A stretch of 64,000 nucleotides of DNA from Denitrobaculum tricleocarpae (lineage in GTDB: Bacteria > Pseudomonadota > Alphaproteobacteria > Kiloniellales > Kiloniellaceae), in the NCBI RefSeq assembly GCF_007004665.1, contig NZ_ML660055.1:124001-188000 (forward strand), in the 5' to 3' direction. The notes under the pieces are model-generated. The model was not told the DNA's origin. It was given only the letters and a program-made list of their open reading frames with translations, and made no database searches. Within the stretch, counting starts at the first letter, position 1; the number at the start of each line of letters is the position of its first letter. Positions 5,165 to 17,475 of this stretch are shown here, one piece after another. The position numbers were made by a program, and so were the translations under genes.

Positions 5165-6895
5165 TCACAGGCTGGCCTGCTGCTCCGCCTCCCATTCCTT
5201 GAGTTTTCCCTGGGAGGCCTGGACACAGGACTTCGCCTTGTCGCGGAAGACCAGCCGGCAGGTGGTGGTCAGCTCCTGCGCCGCCTCGCGCTGGTTGCTG
5301 CGCAGCAGGGCGTCGATGCGGAAGGGGTAGAGGCCCGGCGGCTCCTTGAAACGGGTCCAGGCTTCGTCGATCAGGGCGTCCGCCGCCTTGATCTTGCCGC
5401 TGTCCCGGTAGAGCCGGATCGTATCCCGGTAGACCTCGAAGGAGGGCTCAGGTCCTTTGAGCGCATATTCCAGATTGAGGCGCTGCTTTGTCGTCTCGCC
5501 CTGAAGCTTGCGCAGCAGCGCGAAATTCAGCCGCGGCAGGGCAAGGCTGCCGCCCCGGCCCTTGATGGCGGCAAAGGCCTTTTGCTGCGCGCCCTTGTAG
5601 TCCTCGACATCGATGTAGTTCCGGGTCTCCCAGCTGGCACGGTAAATGGTCAGAAGCTCGTCCACGGAGGGCTGGGCCAGAAATTTCGCCCAACCGGACC
5701 GGATTGCCTCGCGCTCGTCGAACTCGTCTTCCTTATCCTCGTAGTGCTCGTCGATATAGTCGACCAGGGAATCCAGACGCTCCTGGGTCTCGGGGTGGCG
5801 TTCTTCGAGATCCGTGGTCAGGGCATCGAACTCCAGACGCGCCTTTTCGACGAAGTTCATGAAGGCCTGCCCGATGTCGCGCGTGCTCTCCGCCCTTGCA
5901 TCCAGGTCGGCCCGCCGCGCGGCGAAGGGATCGGTCTCCACGCCCTCGAAGTACTTCAGCAGGCGCTCCAGGAAGACCGGCGCCTCGTAGACGTCGTAAC
6001 CGGCGCGCGCCACCAGGTCGAAGGCGAGCAGATCCGCCTCGATCTCCTGATCCCGCGACCAGCTCGGCGTGAGAGCCGTCTCGGTCAGAAACAAAGTCGC
6101 CTGTGCCGCGAACCAGGTGATCAGCTGAACCTTCTGCATCTCGGCCTGATTGTTCGCGTCCAGGAAGCCGTAAGCGGCGCCGAGTTCCACCGCGGAAGCC
6201 AGGCCGACCTCGGCCACGTTGGCCAGCTTCTCGTTGGTGCTGGCCAGCCACTCCGCATTGTGGTGGTTCAGGAGCACGTGCGAGATTTCATGGGCAACCA
6301 CGAAAGCCAGCTCGTCCTCGCTGCCGACATCCGCGATGATCGCAATCGGGATGCCGATCACACCGTCATGCATGGCGCTGGCATCGCCGAGACCGCGCGC
6401 GCCGGTCACGACGAAGCGGATCGGGACGTTGGTCACCGGCTGGACGGCCAGAACCCGGGCCGCGATCTGATTGAGCTTGGCTTCGATCCTCGCTTCCGGC
6501 ACCACGCCCGGACGGGCCAGGCGGAAGTGGGTCATGCCGTCGGTCAGCAGATTGACGTCCTGCGGTTTGTAGGCCGTGCCGCTCTCTTGCTGCTTCGGCT
6601 CTTTGACCCCGCTGTAGCCGTCTTCGTCTTTCCCGAAGGCCGTGCTGGAGAGATTGCGCTGCGGCGTCGCCTTGCTTTCACGTTCCAGGATCGACATCCG
6701 CCAGGGACCGGGCTCCAGTTCGTCGATCAGCACCCCGTCTTCCCCGGGCGCGCCGTCGACCTGCCGGTCGATCCACTTGAAGAGATCGGATTGGGCGGGC
6801 GGGATCAAACCCGCCATGAGAATCCCAAAGACCCCGAGGGCGATCACCGCGCGGATTGCAACGGATCGCCGTTCCCCAAAAGACGCAGTCCTCAT
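5165..6895 (-). CDS. M48 family zinc metalloprotease, membrane-anchored or exported
   Basis: This 576-residue protein has an N-terminal signal anchor (residues ~14-34), an M48 peptidase domain with the zinc motif HEISH at 202-206, the third ligand in EIEADLLAFDL, and a C-terminal helical repeat region of TPR-like character (~430-570). M48 proteases of this type act in envelope quality control. The ATG overlaps the stop of the upstream SH3-like gene by four bases (ATGA), so translation of the two is probably coupled. It resembles BepA-type M48-TPR proteins, but no outer-membrane signal was seen. Function in this cluster is inference. Confidence 0.85.
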   Translation of the reverse strand: MRTASFGERRSVAIRAVIALGVFGILMAGLIPPAQSDLFKWIDRQVDGAPGEDGVLIDELEPGPWRMSILERESKATPQRNLSSTAFGKDEDGYSGVKEPKQQESGTAYKPQDVNLLTDGMTHFRLARPGVVPEARIEAKLNQIAARVLAVQPVTNVPIRFVVTGARGLGDASAMHDGVIGIPIAIIADVGSEDELAFVVAHEISHVLLNHHNAEWLASTNEKLANVAEVGLASAVELGAAYGFLDANNQAEMQKVQLITWFAAQATLFLTETALTPSWSRDQEIEADLLAFDLVARAGYDVYEAPVFLERLLKYFEGVETDPFAARRADLDARAESTRDIGQAFMNFVEKARLEFDALTTDLEERHPETQERLDSLVDYIDEHYEDKEDEFDEREAIRSGWAKFLAQPSVDELLTIYRASWETRNYIDVEDYKGAQQKAFAAIKGRGGSLALPRLNFALLRKLQGETTKQRLNLEYALKGPEPSFEVYRDTIRLYRDSGKIKAADALIDEAWTRFKEPPGLYPFRIDALLRSNQREAAQELTTTCRLVFRDKAKSCVQASQGKLKEWEAEQQASL

Positions 6896-7311
6896 TGACA
6901 GGACGCGCCCGAACCGCGCGAGACCGCATTTCCCGCGCTTCCCTGTTGCACACTGGCGAGACTCTGGACCTTCGGACAGGGCGGCAGTCCGGTCTTCACA
7001 CCGTTGGTCTTGGCGTTCTTGCGCTTGATCCAGACGGTCTGGTTATTGATTTTGAAAGCGTAACGGCTGTTGGTGGCCGCAAGGATCTTTTGCTGGCCTC
7101 CCAAAGCGCGAAGCTCTTTGGCCGAGAGTTTTTTCCATACCGCTTTGCTTTTGGCGTCTTTGTAGAGCTTGATTTTGGATCCGCTAAAGCCGGTGATCAT
7201 TGGTTCGCTCTGGCCATATGCCGACGGCACGCCGGATAGCAAACCCGCTCCAAAACTCAAAAAAACTGCAAGAAAGACCGCCTGTACGCCTCCATTGAAC
7301 CTGTTTCCCAT
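6892..7311 (-). CDS. Small exported SH3-like protein
   Basis: This is a 139-residue protein beginning MGNRFNGG, preceded by AAAAGGGG at good spacing; the in-frame ATG nine codons earlier lacks a ribosome site. A signal peptide (residues ~8-34) ends near PSAYGQSE. The mature part reads SKIKLYKDAKSKAVWKKL and later YAFKINNQTVWIKRKNAKT, a beta-rich pattern like bacterial SH3-type domains. Two cysteines (PPC near the end, and the penultimate residue SCQ) could form a disulfide. It overlaps the M48 gene by four bases. The exact family is not recognised. Confidence 0.7.
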   Translation of the reverse strand: MGNRFNGGVQAVFLAVFLSFGAGLLSGVPSAYGQSEPMITGFSGSKIKLYKDAKSKAVWKKLSAKELRALGGQQKILAATNSRYAFKINNQTVWIKRKNAKTNGVKTGLPPCPKVQSLASVQQGSAGNAVSRGSGASCQ

Positions 7312-7458
7312 AGCATCCCCTTTTCTATAGCAGGTCACTTTTTTGATGACTGTTATCGGTAGTGCTCAACCCTGATCTTTACGATTCATGATAGTGTAGC
7401 AAATTGTTTTACAACCTACAATTATAGAGTCGCACAGCTCTTCTAAAACTGCATGATT
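7312..7458 (-). promoter_or_regulatory. AT-rich spacer between CHASE2 gene and SH3-like gene
   Basis: The 147-base spacer is clearly richer in A and T than its surroundings, especially 7340-7440. This fits a promoter for the SH3-like/M48 pair in addition to any read-through from the CHASE2 gene. No single -35/-10 pair could be chosen with confidence. Confidence 0.35.
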
Positions 7459-9681
7459 TCAGTCCCTGGTTTCTGCATTGCCCCGACTCCTGGTGTCCTG
7501 ATTCGAGGTGTCCTGGCTCGAGGCGCCCCGACTCCAGGCGCCCCTACTCCAGGCGCCCTGGCCCCAGGCACCCAGGCCCGGCCAGAGCGGCGGCACCAGC
7601 CGCCCGAGACGCGGCGTCGAACGCGCGGCCAGCAGGCCCAGCAGCCCGATGAAGTTCAGGCTGGCCAGGGGAAAAAGCCAGTTTACGGCCAGGATCAGGA
7701 GGAGCAGAACAGCCGCGGCCGCCACGGGCAGCGCGAAGATGCCCGCGAGCCAGATGGAATAGAAGCGAAAGGCCGCGCGCTGCCTGCGCGCAAAGCCGCC
7801 CAGGCGCTCGATCCGCGCCAGCAGGGTCATGCCGTATTCCCAGACCGGAACCACGAAAAGCAGGCCCACCAGCATCAGAATGAGCTGATTGGGAAGTCCC
7901 CAGGTCCGGTCATTGGGGAGCAGCGCATCGGCTCCGCGGTAGGTCAGCAGGTTCTCGATCGCCATGGCATGGAAGTACGCGCCGTTCAACGGCAGGTGCG
8001 TGGGGGGCGTGAAAGGATCTTCGAGACCGGTCAGATTCTGGGCATAGATCACAATCGCCCCTTCCAGGTCTCTCTCGGGGTTTTTGAGGGGATCCGGCTC
8101 CTGGTCCTCTTGCGGAACATCCTCTTCCAGGACCTGCGCAACGTGCAGGCTTCGGACCGGCGGACAGATCTGCCGCAGGGGTGAGCGGAACTGGAACAAC
8201 CGGTCTTTGCCGCTTTCCATCTGCACGGCAAGCAGGCGTTCCAACCAGTGCCCGGGAAGCTCTCTGCAGGCATAGCGGCCGTTCCGCTGCACGGTCGAAC
8301 CATCGGAGAGCTTCATTTCGAAACTGCGGGTCGACCATTGCAGGCTGAGTTCATCGACGTCGGGAAGGGCAAGGACCTGGTCCGAACAGAGCGCGGCATC
8401 GTGACTGACGGAGTCCAGGTGCCGGACAGCGTCGAACAGACCGCAGGCGGCGCTGGGCAACCGCCTGGCAAAACGGGTTTTGGCAGCGCTCTCCGCGACC
8501 GGGTCGCTATCCACCTCTTGCGATACGCCGAAGGTCGCCGGGCTTTCCGGGTCGATGTCCGTCTCTCTTGGTGAAGGGATTTCCGGCGTGCTCTCGGTTG
8601 ATCCGGGAAGGACGCGGCGTGCTTCGGGGTTAATCGCGTCGAGGAAACAGCGCTGTCCTTTGGGTTGATGATTCCACAGGGGATAGCGCGTTCCCTGCCG
8701 GTGGAAGCGCGCGCCCGGCACATCGACGGCGCGGGTGCCGGCGCCCTCCGAAACATCGTCCGGCAAGAAAAAGGGTAGAAGACAGGGCGTGCCGGCGAAG
8801 AGCAACGGGATCTTCTGTGTGTCCCGGTAATCCGCAATAACCTCGCCGAGATAGGCGGAAGCCCCGCCGAAGAAGCGTTGATGATCTTCGGACTGATCCC
8901 GCAGGGCGGTCACTTCCTCCGGCTCGCCGTCGTCGTCCAGATAGCTGCGGTCGTCGATGAAGGCGATGTTGACGAATACCGCCGCCGGTTTCTTCTCGGC
9001 AATCTCCTCCAGAACCCAGGCATGAAAATCGTAGCTGGCCGGCCAGGTCTCTTCGTAGAATTCCAGGTCTTCTTCCAGCAACTCGACAACCACCACTTTG
9101 GGCGGCGGCGCTTCCCGCTGCCTGAGTTCGCGTTGCCTCTCGTAGTTGCCGGTGCGGAAAACCTGATGATGGAGAACATCGGAGTAGTTGTCCGCCGCAC
9201 TCACCAGCCCCCAGGGGTCGGCGTCAACGGCCAGAAGATAGCCCGAGATCGCGAGGAGGGCCGCGAAGACAACCCGCAGGGGCTTGACCCGGAGGCTGAT
9301 TCTCTCCTCCCTGCGCGTTGGCGCGGGTAAGGGCGTCAGCCCGGCCGAGATCCGCCGACTGGCGGCACGCAGCAGGCCGCCGATAAAGCCCCGGCCGCGG
9401 GCCCGTAGGCTTCCCGTCTCCAACTCCACCTGATCCCGCTCGACCCAGACTTCGCGGCCGTCCAGGTCAAAAGCGATCCCCGCCGGAGCTTCATCGAAGG
9501 GGCTGAAGGGACGGGTGATGCGATAGGGCGGATTGAGCGCGTCCCGCGGCAGAAACGACTGCGCAAGACCTGCCGCGGGCGCGGCGCGATACTCAGAATG
9601 ATAGAGGGTGACGAAGGAGGAATTGAATCCGGTCACACGGCCATAGTCGCGCGCCATCACCTCGGCCGCCCCCCTGCGCAC
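7459..9681 (-). CDS. CHASE2-domain membrane sensor without an output enzyme domain
   Basis: This is a 740-residue protein. Residues ~10-90 look SH3-like (FVTLYHSEYRAAP ... GREVWVERDQVELE) and share the pattern of the small downstream exported protein. A membrane segment lies at ~136-152, followed by a CHASE2 sensory domain starting KVVVVELLEEDLEFYEE and ending in IVIYAQNLTGLEDPF ... GAYFHAMAIENLLTYRG. Two to three membrane segments follow (~612-690). No kinase, cyclase or GGDEF domain comes after them. The last ~45 residues are a low-complexity tail (GAWSRGAWSRGA) encoded by six degenerate 15-bp repeats. An alternative ATG exists eight codons inside. It leads the minus-strand cluster with the SH3-like protein and M48 protease. 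Confidence 0.78.
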   Translation of the reverse strand: MRRGAAEVMARDYGRVTGFNSSFVTLYHSEYRAAPAAGLAQSFLPRDALNPPYRITRPFSPFDEAPAGIAFDLDGREVWVERDQVELETGSLRARGRGFIGGLLRAASRRISAGLTPLPAPTRREERISLRVKPLRVVFAALLAISGYLLAVDADPWGLVSAADNYSDVLHHQVFRTGNYERQRELRQREAPPPKVVVVELLEEDLEFYEETWPASYDFHAWVLEEIAEKKPAAVFVNIAFIDDRSYLDDDGEPEEVTALRDQSEDHQRFFGGASAYLGEVIADYRDTQKIPLLFAGTPCLLPFFLPDDVSEGAGTRAVDVPGARFHRQGTRYPLWNHQPKGQRCFLDAINPEARRVLPGSTESTPEIPSPRETDIDPESPATFGVSQEVDSDPVAESAAKTRFARRLPSAACGLFDAVRHLDSVSHDAALCSDQVLALPDVDELSLQWSTRSFEMKLSDGSTVQRNGRYACRELPGHWLERLLAVQMESGKDRLFQFRSPLRQICPPVRSLHVAQVLEEDVPQEDQEPDPLKNPERDLEGAIVIYAQNLTGLEDPFTPPTHLPLNGAYFHAMAIENLLTYRGADALLPNDRTWGLPNQLILMLVGLLFVVPVWEYGMTLLARIERLGGFARRQRAAFRFYSIWLAGIFALPVAAAAVLLLLILAVNWLFPLASLNFIGLLGLLAARSTPRLGRLVPPLWPGLGAWGQGAWSRGAWSRGASSQDTSNQDTRSRGNAETRD
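7487..7576. repeat. Six degenerate 15-bp tandem repeats encoding the tail of the CHASE2 protein
   Basis: Six consecutive 15-base units run from 7487 to 7576, all variants of ctccaggcgccctgg. They encode a pentapeptide-like low-complexity C-terminus after the last membrane segment. Confidence 0.85.
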
Positions 9682-10310
9682 GGAGCTCCGAAGCGGAACG
9701 TCACCGCCCCTGCCCGGCCCAAAGACCGCTCAGCCTTCCCCAACACGACCCAGCCTCCCCCAAAGAGCTCATCAATCGCTCAGGTAGCGTAGGACAGCCT
9801 ATTTCTCCCGGCAAGCAGGAATAAAAATTCGCGTAGGAATCATGCTGTTAAAGCGGCTGTGCCTTTACCGGAAACCGCTTTCGCGTTTGTGTCTGAGCGG
9901 ATCTTCCCGCTGTCCGCTCTCAGAGGGTTCAGGGCCCGGAAGGTTCAAGGCCCGGAAGGTTCAGGACCCGGAGAATGTGGAGCCCCGAGAACCTGAAGCC
10001 CCGAGAATTTTCATCCCTTCGAAGACACACGGCCGGCGCAGTGATCCGGTTCCATACAATGACACCGCAGGAAAACGGATGAAAACAGCAAGTCAAAACG
10101 AAATCCCCAAATACAAGTCTGGTTTTTACCGGAGCGGGCAAAAAGCAGCTGGAGAAATCTTACAAACAACTTTTCGCTGTTAAAGCTCTTTTAGACTCCA
10201 TCATCTATCATTGCGTTTAAGTTTTGAGGAAAACACTCGCATTAATTGTTTTTCCAAAGATAAATATTCTACCAGAACGCTCCGACTGTACGAATAAACC
10301 GGGTGACGAG
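9682..10310. other. Divergent intergenic region with a 16-bp repeat array
   Basis: No supported gene lies between the CHASE2 gene and the chemoreceptor gene. The region contains five degenerate 16-bp units at 9926-10005, an AT-rich stretch at about 10100-10290 that should hold the chemoreceptor promoter, and a CtrA-like pair TTAA-N7-TTAG at 10181-10195. A frame at 9842-10183 was considered and rejected because it reads through the repeats and has no recognisable ribosome site. Confidence 0.55.
9926..10005. repeat. Five degenerate 16-bp tandem repeats, noncoding
   Basis: Units start at 9926, 9942, 9958, 9974 and 9990. The first three differ at one to three positions; the last two are more diverged but keep the cccgag core. 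Confidence 0.8.
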
Positions 10311-12350
10311 ATGTACAAGAACCTATCCATACGATGGAAGATGATGCTCCTGGTGGCGCTCAGCGCGATCATTCTGGCCTCGGTAAGCCTCTATGCGACT
10401 TTTCAGCTCGCCGCCATGGGCACCGAGCTGGAAGAGATCGCCGAGAACGACCTGCCGCTGTCGAACATGATCACCAAGATCACCATCCATCAGTTGGAAC
10501 AGGCGATTCAGTTCGAACGTACGCTGCGCTTCGGCGAGGAGATGGCAAGCTACCCCGATGCCAAAGAACACTTCGAGCATTCGAACAAACGCTTCCACGA
10601 GCTTGCAGAACTGGTGGATAGCGAAATCCTCGAGGCCGAAGCGCTGGTCGAAAACTCGACAGGTCAACTGGCCGGTAGCTCGGCGAAGCGGGAGTTCGAG
10701 AAGGTCATGGGCGTGCTCAAGGAGCTGGAGGTTGAACACAAGAACTACGATCTGCATGCCGATGAAGTCATCGATCTGTTGAAGGCCGGCAATCTCGAAG
10801 AGGCCAGGACCAAGGCGATCGAGGTCGAGGCGGAGGAAGACAGATTCAATCACAAGCTCGAGGAACTGCTGTTGGAGATCGGGAAGTTCACCGAAGAGTC
10901 GGCGAAGCTTGCCGAGCAACATGAGCAGGCCGCAGAACGCGACCTTTGGATCGCCATGGGTCTGGGCATTGTGATTCTGGTTGTCGGCGGCCTGCTGATG
11001 GTCGAACAGATCCTGCGGCCCCTGCTGCGCTCGGTCGACGCGGTCGACGCGCTGGCCGAGGGCGATACCACGATGGAATTGACCCTCGAATCCAAAGACG
11101 AACTCGGCCGCCTGACCACCTCGGTCGAAGCCCTGCGCCAGGCCATGATCAGGCTGAACGAGATGCAGGCTGTGGAAGCCAAGCGGGAAATGGAGGCCAA
11201 GGCGCAGATCAAAAAGGAAATGCTGGCCATGTCCGACGCCCTGGACCAGCACGTCCAGGCCGCGGTCGGCGCTATCCGGGAAAAGGCCAACTCCATGGAC
11301 GGCCTGATCGATCGAATGAGTCACGCTGCCCAGCAGGTCAGTGCACAGAGCACCTCCGTAACCGCCTCGGCGGAGAGCGCCACGGGCAATGTGCAGACCG
11401 TCGCCTCGGCTGCGGAAGAGATGTCGGGCAACATTAACGAGATCAGCCGGCAGATCGGCCGCTCCACCACGATCACCGCGCAGGCGGTCGAAGTCGCGAA
11501 CACGACCACGGAAAAGGTCCAGGGCCTGACCGAAGCCGCCAAGCAGATCGAGGACATTGTGACACTGATCAACGAAATCGCGGATCAGACCAACCTGCTC
11601 GCGCTGAATGCCACGATCGAGGCGGCCCGTGCCGGAGATGCCGGCAAGGGCTTTGCCGTCGTGGCTTCCGAGGTCAAGAACCTGGCCACTCAGACGGCAA
11701 AGGCTACGGATCAGATCCGGCAGCAGATCGGCGCAATCCAGGGCGCGACGGGCGAAGCCGCCACGGCTATCGAGAAGATCGGTTCCACGGTCAACGAGAT
11801 CAGCGAAATCACCGGCGGAATCTCCGATTCCATGAAGGAGCAGTCGGCGGCCACCATGGAAATCGCCCGCAGCGTCCAGGAGGCCGCGTCGGGCACCCAG
11901 GAGGTGACCACCAACATGCAGGAGGCCTCGTCCGCTTCACAGGAATCCGAAAAAGTCGCCACACAGGTCAGCCAAGACGCGAAGGAGGTGATCGGCGCGG
12001 TCAACGCCCTGCAGACTCAGATCACTGAAATCCTTCGCGAATCCAAGGCGGGCGACCGGCGCGTCCACCAGCGGGTGAAGCACCGGCAGGCGTCGCAAGC
12101 TCAGGTCAAAGGCCAGTGGCGGGACTGCACCATCCAGGACATCTCCGCCGGCGGCGCCGAGATCTCGGCCTTGGACGGCACCGATCAGGGCGACTCGGTC
12201 AAGCTGAAGGTTCCCGGCTTCGGCGAGGTCGAAGGCCGGATCATCCGCGCCACCGAAACCTCGCGCGGGATCACCTTCAATCTGGACGAGGAAACGCGCG
12301 ACGCGCTGGATCGGCATCTGACGGGGGCGCGGCAGGAAGAAGCGGCGTAG
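10311..12350 (+). CDS. Methyl-accepting chemotaxis protein with C-terminal PilZ domain
   Basis: The chosen start is the ATG at 10311 ([19 protein letters not shown]), which places the first membrane helix near the N-terminus as usual; the frame extends 29 codons upstream without similarity. A periplasmic helical sensor (~35-200), a second membrane helix, a HAMP segment ([13 protein letters not shown]) and a signalling domain with the conserved hairpin tip [18 protein letters not shown] are present. The last ~95 residues form a PilZ domain with the RxxxR motif (RRVHQR) and DISAGGAEI, which should bind cyclic di-GMP. It therefore likely links second-messenger level to chemotaxis. The ligand is unknown. 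Confidence 0.9.
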
Positions 12351-12688: not shown

Positions 12689-13237
12689 TCAGAAAAGCTT
12701 CTCGAGCGGCAGGTGGTAGTAGATGGTGGCTATCTCGGTGCCGGGATTCTCGTCGCCGATACCGGCGTTGGAGATGTGGCTGATAGCGAAGCCCAAGCGT
12801 GAGCGGTCTTCGAAACGGTAAGCCAGCTCGATCTGAGAGCGGAATTCGATCACGCTGTCCAGGTCCAGGCCGCTGCCCTCCTCGAAGGCGCCGACGCCAA
12901 AGTTCGGGGTCAGGACCACGTTCTTGCCGAAATAGATATCGACCAGGATCCCGGCGCCGCCCCAGATACCGCCCTCGCTGGTGACTTCGACGCCGGCCCA
13001 GGGCTTGAAGATCCAGAGCTTTTCGTCGTGCCGGTACTCCAGCCGGAAATCCGCCGCATCGTCGGCATCGTCGTCCTTGACGGCACGCAGGGCATCGAAA
13101 TAGCCGACACCGAACGAGATCAGCGCGGAGTCGTCTTCCCCGGCATAGGCTTTGGATGCAAATTCAGTGGTGAATGAAATTGAAAGCGCCGTCGCAAAAA
13201 ACGCGACGGCCGCAAAGAAACGGCGCCGAAAAGACAC
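12689..13237 (-). CDS. PagL-like lipid A deacylase (outer-membrane acyloxyacyl hydrolase family)
   Basis: The 182-residue protein starts at a GTG (VSFRRRFFAAVAFFATA) placed seven bases after GGGGGGAG; the frame is open to 13348 but the upstream part does not look like a signal peptide. After the signal sequence, alternating beta-strands suggest a small outer-membrane barrel. The C-terminal motif AISHISNAGIGDENPGTE matches the PagL catalytic region (His-x-Ser-Asn-Ala-Gly ... Asn-Pro-Gly with a following acidic residue). The final residue is phenylalanine, common in barrels. PagL removes the 3-O acyl chain from lipid A. Assignment rests on the motif and barrel pattern. Confidence 0.75.
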   Translation of the reverse strand: MSFRRRFFAAVAFFATALSISFTTEFASKAYAGEDDSALISFGVGYFDALRAVKDDDADDAADFRLEYRHDEKLWIFKPWAGVEVTSEGGIWGGAGILVDIYFGKNVVLTPNFGVGAFEEGSGLDLDSVIEFRSQIELAYRFEDRSRLGFAISHISNAGIGDENPGTEIATIYYHLPLEKLF

Positions 13238-13498
13238 AGTAGACTCCCCCCAGTTTCCAACCCGACCCGGACCCCGGCTTGTCCCGACGAATCCGCGGTT
13301 AGGATTCGGCAGGAGAACCGACCGGTTAAATCCATAGAATTGAAGCACAAACGGCGCAACACCGGATTTGCTCCGAGCGATCCCGACCGAGCTTACAGCC
13401 CGGAAGGTGAATCACACGCTAAGATAACCGCATTCCGGAAAATTTGTAAACACTTGCAATGACTTGACGCTTCCCGCTGGATTTGTGCAGGTCGGTCG
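13238..13498. other. Intergenic region, no gene seen
   Basis: This 261-base spacer carries the promoter side of the PagL-like gene. No hairpin terminator or coding frame was identified. Confidence 0.5.
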
Positions 13499-15148: not shown

Positions 15149-15991
15149 ATGTCGCCACCCGATCTGAAAGCTCCACGCAGTTGGGCCATTGTCCTCGGCC
15201 TTTGCCTTGCCCTGAAGGCAATGCCGGGTGCCGCGGTGGAGGCGACGGCAGCCGGATCGCCAGGCGGCGCAGAAGGGCTGCGCGGGCTTGAGACCGGCGG
15301 GACCGTCACCGTGGCAAAGGTCCTCGACGACGGCAGTTTGCGGCTGGACGACGGCAAAATTCTGCGCCTGGCAGGCATTCAGACACCGCCAACCCCGCCC
15401 TGGTACAAAAAACCGCCCCTCTGGCCGCCCGCCGCGAGGGCCAGGGACCTGCTCGGCGCACTGACGCAGGGACAGGAGCTGCGGCTGGCCTACGACAGAC
15501 GGCGCAGCGACCGGCATGGGCGGCTTCTGGCCCATGTGACCGACGGCCAGGGCCGCTGGCTGCAGGGCGAACTGCTGCGCCGGGGCTGGGCGCGGGTGCA
15601 GGCTTTTCCCGATAACCGGGCGGTTCTGGGCGAGATGCTGACACTGGAGCGCGAAGCCCGGGAGGCGAAGCGCGGGCTCTGGGCGCATTCCGCCTATGCC
15701 GTGCGGCGCCACGACAATACTGAAAAAGACCTGGGCCAGTTCCATCTGGTGGAGGGGGAGGTCTTGGAGGTGGCGGTCGTCCGCGGACGGGCTTATCTTA
15801 ACTTCGGCGAGGACTGGCGCAGCGATTTCACCCTGGTGATCGAGCGCGCCGAGCGCCGGCGTTTTGAAGCCGAGGGGCTCGATCCGGCGCTTTTTGAGGG
15901 ACGCCGCGTGCGGGCGCGCGGCTGGTTGGAATTTCGTAACGGTGTGACGATTACTATCACGCACCCGGAACAGATTGAGGTACTCGACTGA
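15149..15991 (+). CDS. Thermonuclease-like (SNase family) exported protein with altered active site
   Basis: This 280-residue protein has a signal-like N-terminus (residues ~12-30) and a staphylococcal-nuclease OB-fold domain: VTVAKVLDDGSLRLDDGKIL, LRLAGIQTPP, then SDRHGRLLAHV and LLRRGWARVQ. In SNase the loop reads IDTPE, with the metal-binding Asp and the catalytic Glu. Here it reads IQTPP, so both are replaced, although the arginines are present. Nuclease activity is therefore doubtful. A C-terminal ~110-residue domain (FHLVEGEVLEVAVVRGRAYLNFG) is typical of a group of alphaproteobacterial homologues. The stop overlaps the next start (TGATG). Confidence 0.8.
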   Translation: MSPPDLKAPRSWAIVLGLCLALKAMPGAAVEATAAGSPGGAEGLRGLETGGTVTVAKVLDDGSLRLDDGKILRLAGIQTPPTPPWYKKPPLWPPAARARDLLGALTQGQELRLAYDRRRSDRHGRLLAHVTDGQGRWLQGELLRRGWARVQAFPDNRAVLGEMLTLEREAREAKRGLWAHSAYAVRRHDNTEKDLGQFHLVEGEVLEVAVVRGRAYLNFGEDWRSDFTLVIERAERRRFEAEGLDPALFEGRRVRARGWLEFRNGVTITITHPEQIEVLD

Positions 15992-17475
15992 TGATCTTCT
16001 CCCGCCCGCGCGCTGGGTTTGCGCGCATTCTGACGGCCTCGGCGCTTCTCGCCTCTCTGGTCTTTCTGAGCGGCTGCGAAACCTCACCCGCGACCGGGGA
16101 GTCCTTCTTCACCGGCGGCCTGACCAAGGACAAGGAAGCCGCTCTGGGCGCCCAGGAGCATGAGAAGATCCTGCAGCAGTTCGGCGGCAGCTATGACGAC
16201 CCGGAACTGGCGCAATACATCACCAGCCTGGGGAACCTGCTGGTCAAGACCTCTGAGACGCCCGACGACAAATTCACCTTCACGGTGCTCGATTCCCCGG
16301 TGGTCAACGCCTTTGCCCTGCCCGGCGGCTATGTTTACCTGACCCGGGGCCTGCTGGCCCTGGCCGACGACGAGGCGGAAATCGCCGGCGTCACGGCCCA
16401 TGAGATCGGCCACGTGACCGCGCGTCACGCCTCACAGCGTTACGGCCGCGCGGTCGGAACGTCAATCCTGGCGGCGGGTGTCGGCATTCTTCTGGGCAGC
16501 CAGGAAGCGGCCGCGGCGGCCAATCAGGTCGGAGCTATGGCCCTGCAGAGCTACTCCCGCGATCAGGAATTCCAGGCCGACCTGCTGGGTGTCCGCTACC
16601 TCTCGCGCGGCGGTTTCGAGCCCGAGGGCATGGCCGACTTCCTCACCAAACTGCAGGCCGACAGCCGACTGAGCGCAAGGATCGCCGGCAATCCGGACGC
16701 CGCCGACGAATTCAACATCATGCAGACCCACCCGCGCACCGCCGACCGCATTCAACGCGCCATCGCCCAGGCCGGCGAACGGCCGGTCGCGAACCCCATC
16801 GTCGGACGGGATGTCTATCTCTCGAAAATCGACGGCATGACCTATGGCGACGGACCCAACCAGGGCTTCACCCGGGGCCGGGAATTCCTGCACCCGGAAC
16901 TGCGCTTCGCCTTCGAGGTTCCGCTGAAATACCGGATCATCAACCGGCCCGACAGGGTCATCGCCCAGCATCCGGACAGCTCGATCATCGTTTTCCGTCA
17001 GGGCTCGAAGCCGGCCAATGTGTCCTTGAGCGAATACCTCACCCAGGGTTTTGGCGCGAAGCTTCCGCTGAAAAACGTTGAACAGATCGAGGTGAACGGC
17101 ATGGACGCGGTCACCGCCCAGGCGCGGGTCAAAGGTCAGCAGGGCGAGCACGACTGGCGCTTGACCACGATTCAATACGACGAGAAGACGCTCTACAATT
17201 TCCTCTTCATCACCCGGCCCGAGGCGACCGGCGCCCAGGCTCTGGGCCTGAAGCGGACAACCTACAGCTTCCGGAAACTCAGCGCGGAGGAAGCGGGGCA
17301 ACTGAAGCCGAAGCGCCTGCGGATTTATACGGTGCGCGCGGGGGATACGGCGGAGAAGCTCGCCGAGCGCTTCCCCTTCGAGGATTTCAAGCTGGCGCGC
17401 TTCGCGACCCTGAACGGACTGGACCCGAAGCAGCCGCTCAAGGCGGGTCAGAAAGTCAAGATCATCGTGCAGTAG
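15991..17475 (+). CDS. Lipoprotein M48 metalloprotease with C-terminal LysM domain
   Basis: This is a 494-residue protein. The N-terminus has a lipobox, LVFLSGCE, suggesting a lipid-anchored periplasmic protein. The peptidase domain holds the zinc motif HEIGH (VTAHEIGHVTARHAS) and the third ligand region EFQADLLGVRYL. The last ~50 residues (YTVRAGDTAEKLAERFPFED, KAGQKVKIIV) form a LysM domain that should bind peptidoglycan. It resembles BepA/LoiP-type envelope proteases with a wall-binding tail. It is translationally coupled to the SNase-like gene by a one-base overlap. Function is likely envelope protein quality control. Confidence 0.9.
   Translation: MIFSRPRAGFARILTASALLASLVFLSGCETSPATGESFFTGGLTKDKEAALGAQEHEKILQQFGGSYDDPELAQYITSLGNLLVKTSETPDDKFTFTVLDSPVVNAFALPGGYVYLTRGLLALADDEAEIAGVTAHEIGHVTARHASQRYGRAVGTSILAAGVGILLGSQEAAAAANQVGAMALQSYSRDQEFQADLLGVRYLSRGGFEPEGMADFLTKLQADSRLSARIAGNPDAADEFNIMQTHPRTADRIQRAIAQAGERPVANPIVGRDVYLSKIDGMTYGDGPNQGFTRGREFLHPELRFAFEVPLKYRIINRPDRVIAQHPDSSIIVFRQGSKPANVSLSEYLTQGFGAKLPLKNVEQIEVNGMDAVTAQARVKGQQGEHDWRLTTIQYDEKTLYNFLFITRPEATGAQALGLKRTTYSFRKLSAEEAGQLKPKRLRIYTVRAGDTAEKLAERFPFEDFKLARFATLNGLDPKQPLKAGQKVKIIVQ

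Follow-up and report, generated by a model that had tools for sequence, protein, structure and literature searches.

The 64,000-nucleotide stretch of the Denitrobaculum tricleocarpae genome analyzed here (contig NZ_ML660055.1, positions 124,001 to 188,000; hereafter the window) carries a cassette of three minus-strand genes in the order CHASE2, small, and M48. They encode a putative membrane sensor with a CHASE2 domain, a small protein of 139 to 148 amino acids that has a hydrophobic signal predicting its export, and an M48 zinc protease (Table 1). Rereading the sequence reproduced the coordinates, strand, gene order, and four-base small/M48 overlap given by a first-pass annotation. Gene starts were assigned by inspection throughout; for the small gene, an ATG at 7311 is likelier than a GTG at 7338 because the small genes of congeners begin there. 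A sigma-70 scan for promoters of the cassette gave no match.

Table 1. Features of the three-gene cassette, in window coordinates (TM, transmembrane segment; AF2, AlphaFold2; pLDDT, AF2 model confidence)
Feature	Position	Strand	Description and basis
CHASE2 gene	7459..9681	-	740 aa, inner-membrane sensor, no enzymatic output domain; Pfam match, 4 predicted TM segments
N-terminal SH3b-like domain of CHASE2 protein, residues 13-90	9412..9645	-	predicted cytoplasmic; hhalign, shuffles, AF2 model, PDB matches, topology
TM1 of CHASE2 protein, residues 134-152	9226..9282	-	net charge +5 before, -3 after
CHASE2 domain, residues 185-608	7858..9129	-	predicted periplasmic; contains subfamily-conserved Cys432, Cys472, Cys506
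TM2-TM4 of CHASE2 protein, residues 600-686	7624..7884	-	topology prediction
Small exported SH3b-like protein gene	6892..7338	-	start probably ATG at 7311, 139 aa; AF2 model
SH3b core of small protein, residues 36-106 from 7311	6994..7206	-	AF2 pLDDT 79-91 (residues 41-100); PDB matches are bacterial SH3
Small-protein tail with Cys112...Cys138 pair and SRG-x-G-x-x-C motif	6898..6978	-	both Cys columns in 23/24 members
ATGA overlap of small stop and M48 start	6892..6895	-	4-base overlap also in L026, L052, L054, L087, L091
M48 zinc protease gene	5165..6895	-	576 aa, predicted exported, helical-repeat signal in C-terminal part; Pfam M48, PDB profile search
HEISH zinc-binding motif (HExxH), residues 202-206	6278..6292	-	His/Glu/His invariant in 14 members
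EIEAD (ExxAD motif), residues 284-288, third zinc ligand	6032..6046	-	motif intact
HPETQER (HPx4R plug), residues 367-373	5777..5797	-	correspondence to BepA plug (PMC7950410)
C-terminal Cys546...Cys557 pair of M48	5225..5260	-	both columns in 12/14 members

Our results establish the three genes as a real, recurrent system that travels as a unit. Rather than being confined to one genome, a prospect that the first-pass annotation had raised against its own proposal, all three gene types occur together at 26 loci (including the window and the partial locus L053) in Alphaproteobacteria, Gammaproteobacteria, and one contig of a metagenome-assembled genome labelled Anaerolineae. Two of three other members of the genus have the same cluster, and in Kiloniella spongiae (L026), which belongs to the same family, the order is small-M48-CHASE2 with the four-base overlap preserved. 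CHASE2 proteins as such are common in the class (185 of 385 genomes sampled). When we searched 385 alphaproteobacterial genomes with a profile of the cassette CHASE2 (A1), ten other genomes were matched. In nine of them, an HExxH-bearing M48 gene and a gene for a small exported protein lay close by; the tenth match was a CHASE2-FecR-POTRA-type cluster.

Searches that started from the protease led to the same trio. The M48 profile (A6) left a gap between a full-length subfamily (E 1e-54 or better, with one outlier at 6e-32) and ordinary M48 and BepA proteins, which matched mainly over the catalytic core. Among 11 loci found this way, none of which had been used to build the protease profile, nine had CHASE2, small, and M48 genes, and a small gene adjoined M48 in all 11 (that of L137 being assigned by position only). 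The small and M48 genes are kept at L133, where the locus begins at a contig end, and at L109/L138 they lie beside a CHASE2-adenylate cyclase. Four of the 11 loci come from other classes of the phylum, the Gammaproteobacteria (Photobacterium) included. By comparison, only one of 40 ordinary CHASE2 loci (L109) had an M48 of the subfamily; these controls, about 16 kb each, came from the same class and from the top of the Pfam match list rather than at random. The small-protein profile (A7) recovered its training loci in 367 genomes; the sole further match, a marginal one (E 6.4e-4), was to an ordinary SH3_4 protein, and this search gave no convincing small-protein site away from cassettes.

A congener that lacks the cassette (G001) provides an empty site. 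There, the Nudix gene and the gene for a methyl-accepting chemotaxis protein (MCP) that flank the cassette stand in the same order about 0.6 kb apart, against 5.4 kb in the window. Whichever it was, a gain or a loss, it therefore affected all three genes together. Together with the independent protease-first searches and the ordinary CHASE2 controls, this site rules out chance clustering. By the same evidence, the neighboring MCP does not belong to the system, since it stays beside the Nudix gene when the cassette is absent. That MCP (window 10224-12350, plus strand) has a C-terminal PilZ domain and is adjoined by a gene for a PagL-like lipid A 3-O-deacylase (12689-13348, minus strand; PF09411, E 9e-17); another MCP adjoins the cassette of K. 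spongiae (L026 4112-5821).

Public records contain the trio as well, annotated as "CHASE2 domain-containing protein / hypothetical protein / M48" on Tistrella mobilis pTM1 (our G281 C2) and Paroceanicella profunda pD4M1B, and unannotated in Photobacterium sp. DA100 and Novosphingobium sp. KACC 22771. Plasmid sequences queried with the small protein of the window gave no match. A literature search on CHASE2 together with M48, SH3, FecR, or metalloprotease returned no paper describing the cassette. On the 15-kb contig labelled Anaerolineae (L045 1152-7629), two tandem output-less CHASE2 genes accompany the small and M48 genes, an occurrence that may reflect transfer outside the Proteobacteria or mis-binning.

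The CHASE2 protein of the window matches PF05226 over residues 185-608 (E 1.5e-16; 61.2 bits against a gathering score of 26.3). The first-pass annotation took it for a sensor without an enzymatic output, and Pfam agrees, finding CHASE2 as the sole domain in this protein and in the eight cassette relatives scanned. The predicted topology fits the positive-inside charge rule and places CHASE2 in the periplasm between an N-terminal transmembrane segment and C-terminal ones, as in ordinary CHASE2 sensors (cyclases, kinases, and HD proteins; PF05226). Unlike these, the cassette protein has no output domain, has the subfamily-specific Cys432, Cys472, and Cys506, and has a partner protease. In the window it ends in a repetitive tail (GAWSRGAWSRGASSQDTSNQDTRSRG; 7459-7560) that is absent from the CHASE2 proteins of congeners. 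Operons that pair CHASE2 with FecR or LysM (BiofilmReg of Burkholderia, PMC5192318; our L055) likewise combine a CHASE2 gene with an exported protein of wall-binding type, but their partners are a histidine kinase or FecR/POTRA-type proteins and they have no M48. At L055 (7049-14934), a CHASE2 gene and genes of tetratricopeptide repeat (TPR), FecR, and apparently POTRA type follow one another.

The protease of the window matches PF01435 (E 1.2e-16; 61.5 bits, gathering score 20.3). In a PDB profile search it matched BepA (E about 1e-23), an Escherichia coli M48-TPR protease regulated by an HPx4R active-site plug (PMC7950410), and 3c37, both over the catalytic part. The cassette enzyme and BepA share an exported M48 domain, HExxH, ExxAD, and the HPx4R plug. 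BepA also has C-terminal helical repeats, a TPR domain that docks BAM; the C-terminal part of the window enzyme gives a helical-repeat signal, with designed pentatricopeptide repeats matching positions 438-503. Most members have HPx4R or HRx4R/HHx4R at the plug; L052 has T, and in L053 the pattern used did not find the motif. Yet only the catalytic part aligns with BepA (profile columns about 90-280), and the cassette enzyme differs in its conserved C-terminal cysteine pair and its tie to the small and CHASE2 genes. With 44.8 bits against a cutoff of 570 for NF052400, confined to residues 141-314 (NCBIfam E 7e-12), it is not a BepA equivalog. Several cassette members have a lipobox, whereas the window enzyme does not.

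A second point of comparison is JspA of Sinorhizobium meliloti, an M48 lipoprotein that, with the lipoprotein LppA, lowers the signaling repressor ExoR (PMC10659215). The JspA/LppA-ExoR-ExoS-ChvI system likewise sets an M48 envelope protease and a small exported partner in the periplasmic signaling of an alphaproteobacterium. However, JspA is M48-LysM rather than M48 with helical repeats, LppA is a lipoprotein, and no CHASE2 is involved (PMC10659215); Pfam found no LysM in the cassette M48. The cassette is not a JspA-type gene, because the window has a separate one at 15991-17475 (plus strand), a probable M48-LysM lipoprotein of JspA architecture that shares only 27% identity with the cassette M48 across 142 residues.

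The domains anticipated by the first-pass annotation were recovered by profile searches for CHASE2 and M48 but not for SH3: no Pfam SH3 family matched any of 24 small proteins, even at E 10. The window's small protein had no match in Pfam, NCBIfam, PHROG, or PADLOC, and the best hit of the family in a PDB sequence search (E 0.1) was taken as chance. In the one small protein modelled, the predicted fold is that of bacterial SH3 domains (SH3_3, SH3_4, and NlpC/P60 SH3b), from whose families the small proteins differ in having no Pfam SH3 match (0/24) and a tail with a cysteine pair. The small proteins make up an unnamed family, predicted to be SH3-like.

The N-terminus of the window's CHASE2 protein carries a related domain. 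The first-pass annotation had noticed a VWV/IxR motif common to both, and this similarity held up when the 24 small proteins were aligned with the CHASE2 N-terminus by hhalign (probability 92, E 6.5e-7, 67 collinear columns). It exceeds chance, because the real score was 42 and the best of 200 column-shuffled controls reached 19.7. Depth of the small family matters for detecting the homology, since significance was lost when the alignment held just five of its proteins (E 0.017). The folds also agree: AF2 models gave an identical strand order for the two parts, and the best PDB matches of both were bacterial SH3 domains (NlpC/P60 SH3b, 2krs, 2kt8, and 9ovi). The models are modest, resting on five and three sequences, and their scores are moderate (VIA Z up to 7.5 for the small protein and 6.2 for the CHASE2 part; Foldseek E 0.01 or weaker for both, with probability 1.00 but E 0.01-0.06 for the small protein). 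We conclude that the resemblance is real homology, with a common fold and a common origin for both SH3-like parts, which disposes of the second objection that the first-pass annotation had allowed for, unrelated folds. The further suggestion that the envelope contains a binding module common to both proteins does not survive. Among 21 aligned CHASE2 proteins, the SH3 copy is present in three, those of the window and two congeners, and absent from the other 18. In addition, it precedes the first transmembrane segment on the positively charged side and is therefore predicted to be cytoplasmic, opposite the exported small protein. Being restricted to one genus and predicted to lie on the wrong side of the membrane, it cannot be a shared envelope module.

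Each of the three families has conserved cysteines. In CHASE2, Cys432, Cys472, and Cys506 are found in 14, 18, and 19 of 21 members, respectively, and in none of 39 ordinary CHASE2 proteins, which in the stretch around the Cys472 column have gaps. Structural disulfides are the simplest reading of these residues, and a redox role is possible.

Sequence divergence points to exchange of part of the cassette. Between the window and a sister species (G003), identity at fourfold sites was 0.73-0.82 in the flanks and 0.91 in M48, but 0.59 in small and 0.53 in CHASE2; M48 is 98% identical, and the CHASE2 proteins are 56% identical. At the DNA level, window 6900-10200 set against the sister-species locus L025 shows CHASE2 with about 60% identity inside a region that is roughly 90% identical. 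Low synonymous identity suggests replacement by recombination, not fast protein evolution alone. The apparent joint replacement of CHASE2 and small, with M48 left in place, is a single event that fits a matched receptor-adaptor pair. Across loci, distance matrices were correlated between CHASE2 and M48 (rho 0.70; 0.53 without congeners), CHASE2 and small (0.54), and M48 and small (0.37), values that partly reflect shared species history.

Taken together, the output-less receptor, the SH3b protein with its export signal, and the exported protease with its plug suggest that a cue is read by periplasmic proteolysis. What was observed directly is that the genes stay linked, that their products have the domains described and carry signals for export, that the catalytic and plug residues are intact, and that all three families have conserved cysteines. 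From this, we infer a physical interaction, a direction of control, a client, and a cue as follows. The CHASE2 protein, which has no cytoplasmic enzyme, would be anchored in the inner membrane and expose its sensing domain to the periplasm, where it may detect an envelope cue such as a ligand, a misassembled protein, or the state of the wall or of redox. The SH3b protein would be an adaptor that, with CHASE2, controls the M48 enzyme in the periplasmic compartment, its active site being held shut by the HPx4R plug. As its output, the system would cleave a client protein in the periplasm or outer membrane instead of phosphorylating a target or making a cyclic nucleotide. By analogy with BepA and JspA, proteolysis as a regulated signal output is plausible; the JspA/LppA-ExoR precedent indicates that M48 proteases can act in alphaproteobacterial periplasmic signaling (PMC10659215). 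We favor such a three-component envelope sensor-protease module, with proteolysis by a self-plugged M48 as its output, but only tentatively, judging it a little less than evenly probable from sequence.

Several observations weigh against this proposal. At L053 the M48 is short, 1.6 kb away, and on the opposite strand, and the small protein of L087 has no cysteine pair. Gene linkage carries no information on the direction of control, and the M48 could be a quality-control enzyme with CHASE2 as a mere anchor.

The anchor arrangement is the core of the main rival, a BepA-like machine for quality control or assembly in which outer-membrane proteins are cleared or matured by the repeat-bearing M48 protease together with the SH3b protein, and in which CHASE2 serves as scaffold or anchor rather than as sensor. 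The catalytic-core matches to BepA, the C-terminal helical-repeat signal, the lipobox in several members, and an SH3b fold suited to wall or peptide binding all speak for it. Nevertheless, the cassette is found patchily (at E 1e-31, in 14 of 367 genomes of the class) and is missing from its site in a congener, which argues against a housekeeping role. The score far below the BepA equivalog cutoff and the near-constant retention of a sensor-type domain also count against this rival, and we regard this explanation as unlikely, if the most serious of those competing.

Alternatively, CHASE2 could be the substrate of M48, whose cleavage would free the cytoplasmic part in the manner of regulated intramembrane proteolysis. 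The cytoplasmic SH3b domain in the window's genus could act once freed, but 18 of 21 aligned CHASE2 proteins lack it, many CHASE2 proteins of the cassettes have very short N-termini, and neither a site-2 protease gene nor an anti-sigma gene was seen to recur next to cassettes; we consider this route improbable. Slightly more improbable still is that the module tunes second messengers through CHASE2 cyclases or phosphodiesterases elsewhere in the cell. In S. meliloti, cyclases with CHASE2 do sense through an outer-membrane protein (PMC13001267), a partnership that favors the idea, as do two loci. At L109 (7435-11731), small and M48 are convergent with a CHASE2-adenylate cyclase, with no output-less CHASE2 detected nearby, a possible partner swap that would couple them to cAMP; at L088 (4785-8581), a CHASE2-HD gene is convergent with the M48 of a complete cassette. 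Such neighbors are, however, missing at most cassettes. Finally, an anti-phage or anti-competitor conflict system with turnover of sensor alleles would accord with the patchy distribution, the paired swap of CHASE2 and small beside a 98% identical M48, and the nSTAND1 NTPase with TPRs directly downstream of small and M48 at L133 (2108-5986), but PADLOC gave only weak Lit/CapP matches to the zinc-protease motif and the neighbors are mostly metabolic genes, so we give it very little credence.

On the boldest reading, the cassette could represent a class of signal transduction not described before. An output-less CHASE2 would be read wholly outside the cytoplasm through an SH3b adaptor and a plugged M48, disulfides in all three parts would serve assembly or redox functions, and species would exchange receptor and adaptor together as a unit of specificity. 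We consider this broader claim doubtful. For a sensor domain that is very common in bacteria and has few known ligands, an output-less CHASE2 tied to a protease offers a direct route to what it senses and how it signals. With the cassette come, in addition, an SH3-like protein family that has no name yet and a possible means of controlling M48 proteases, enzymes whose regulation in vivo is poorly understood.

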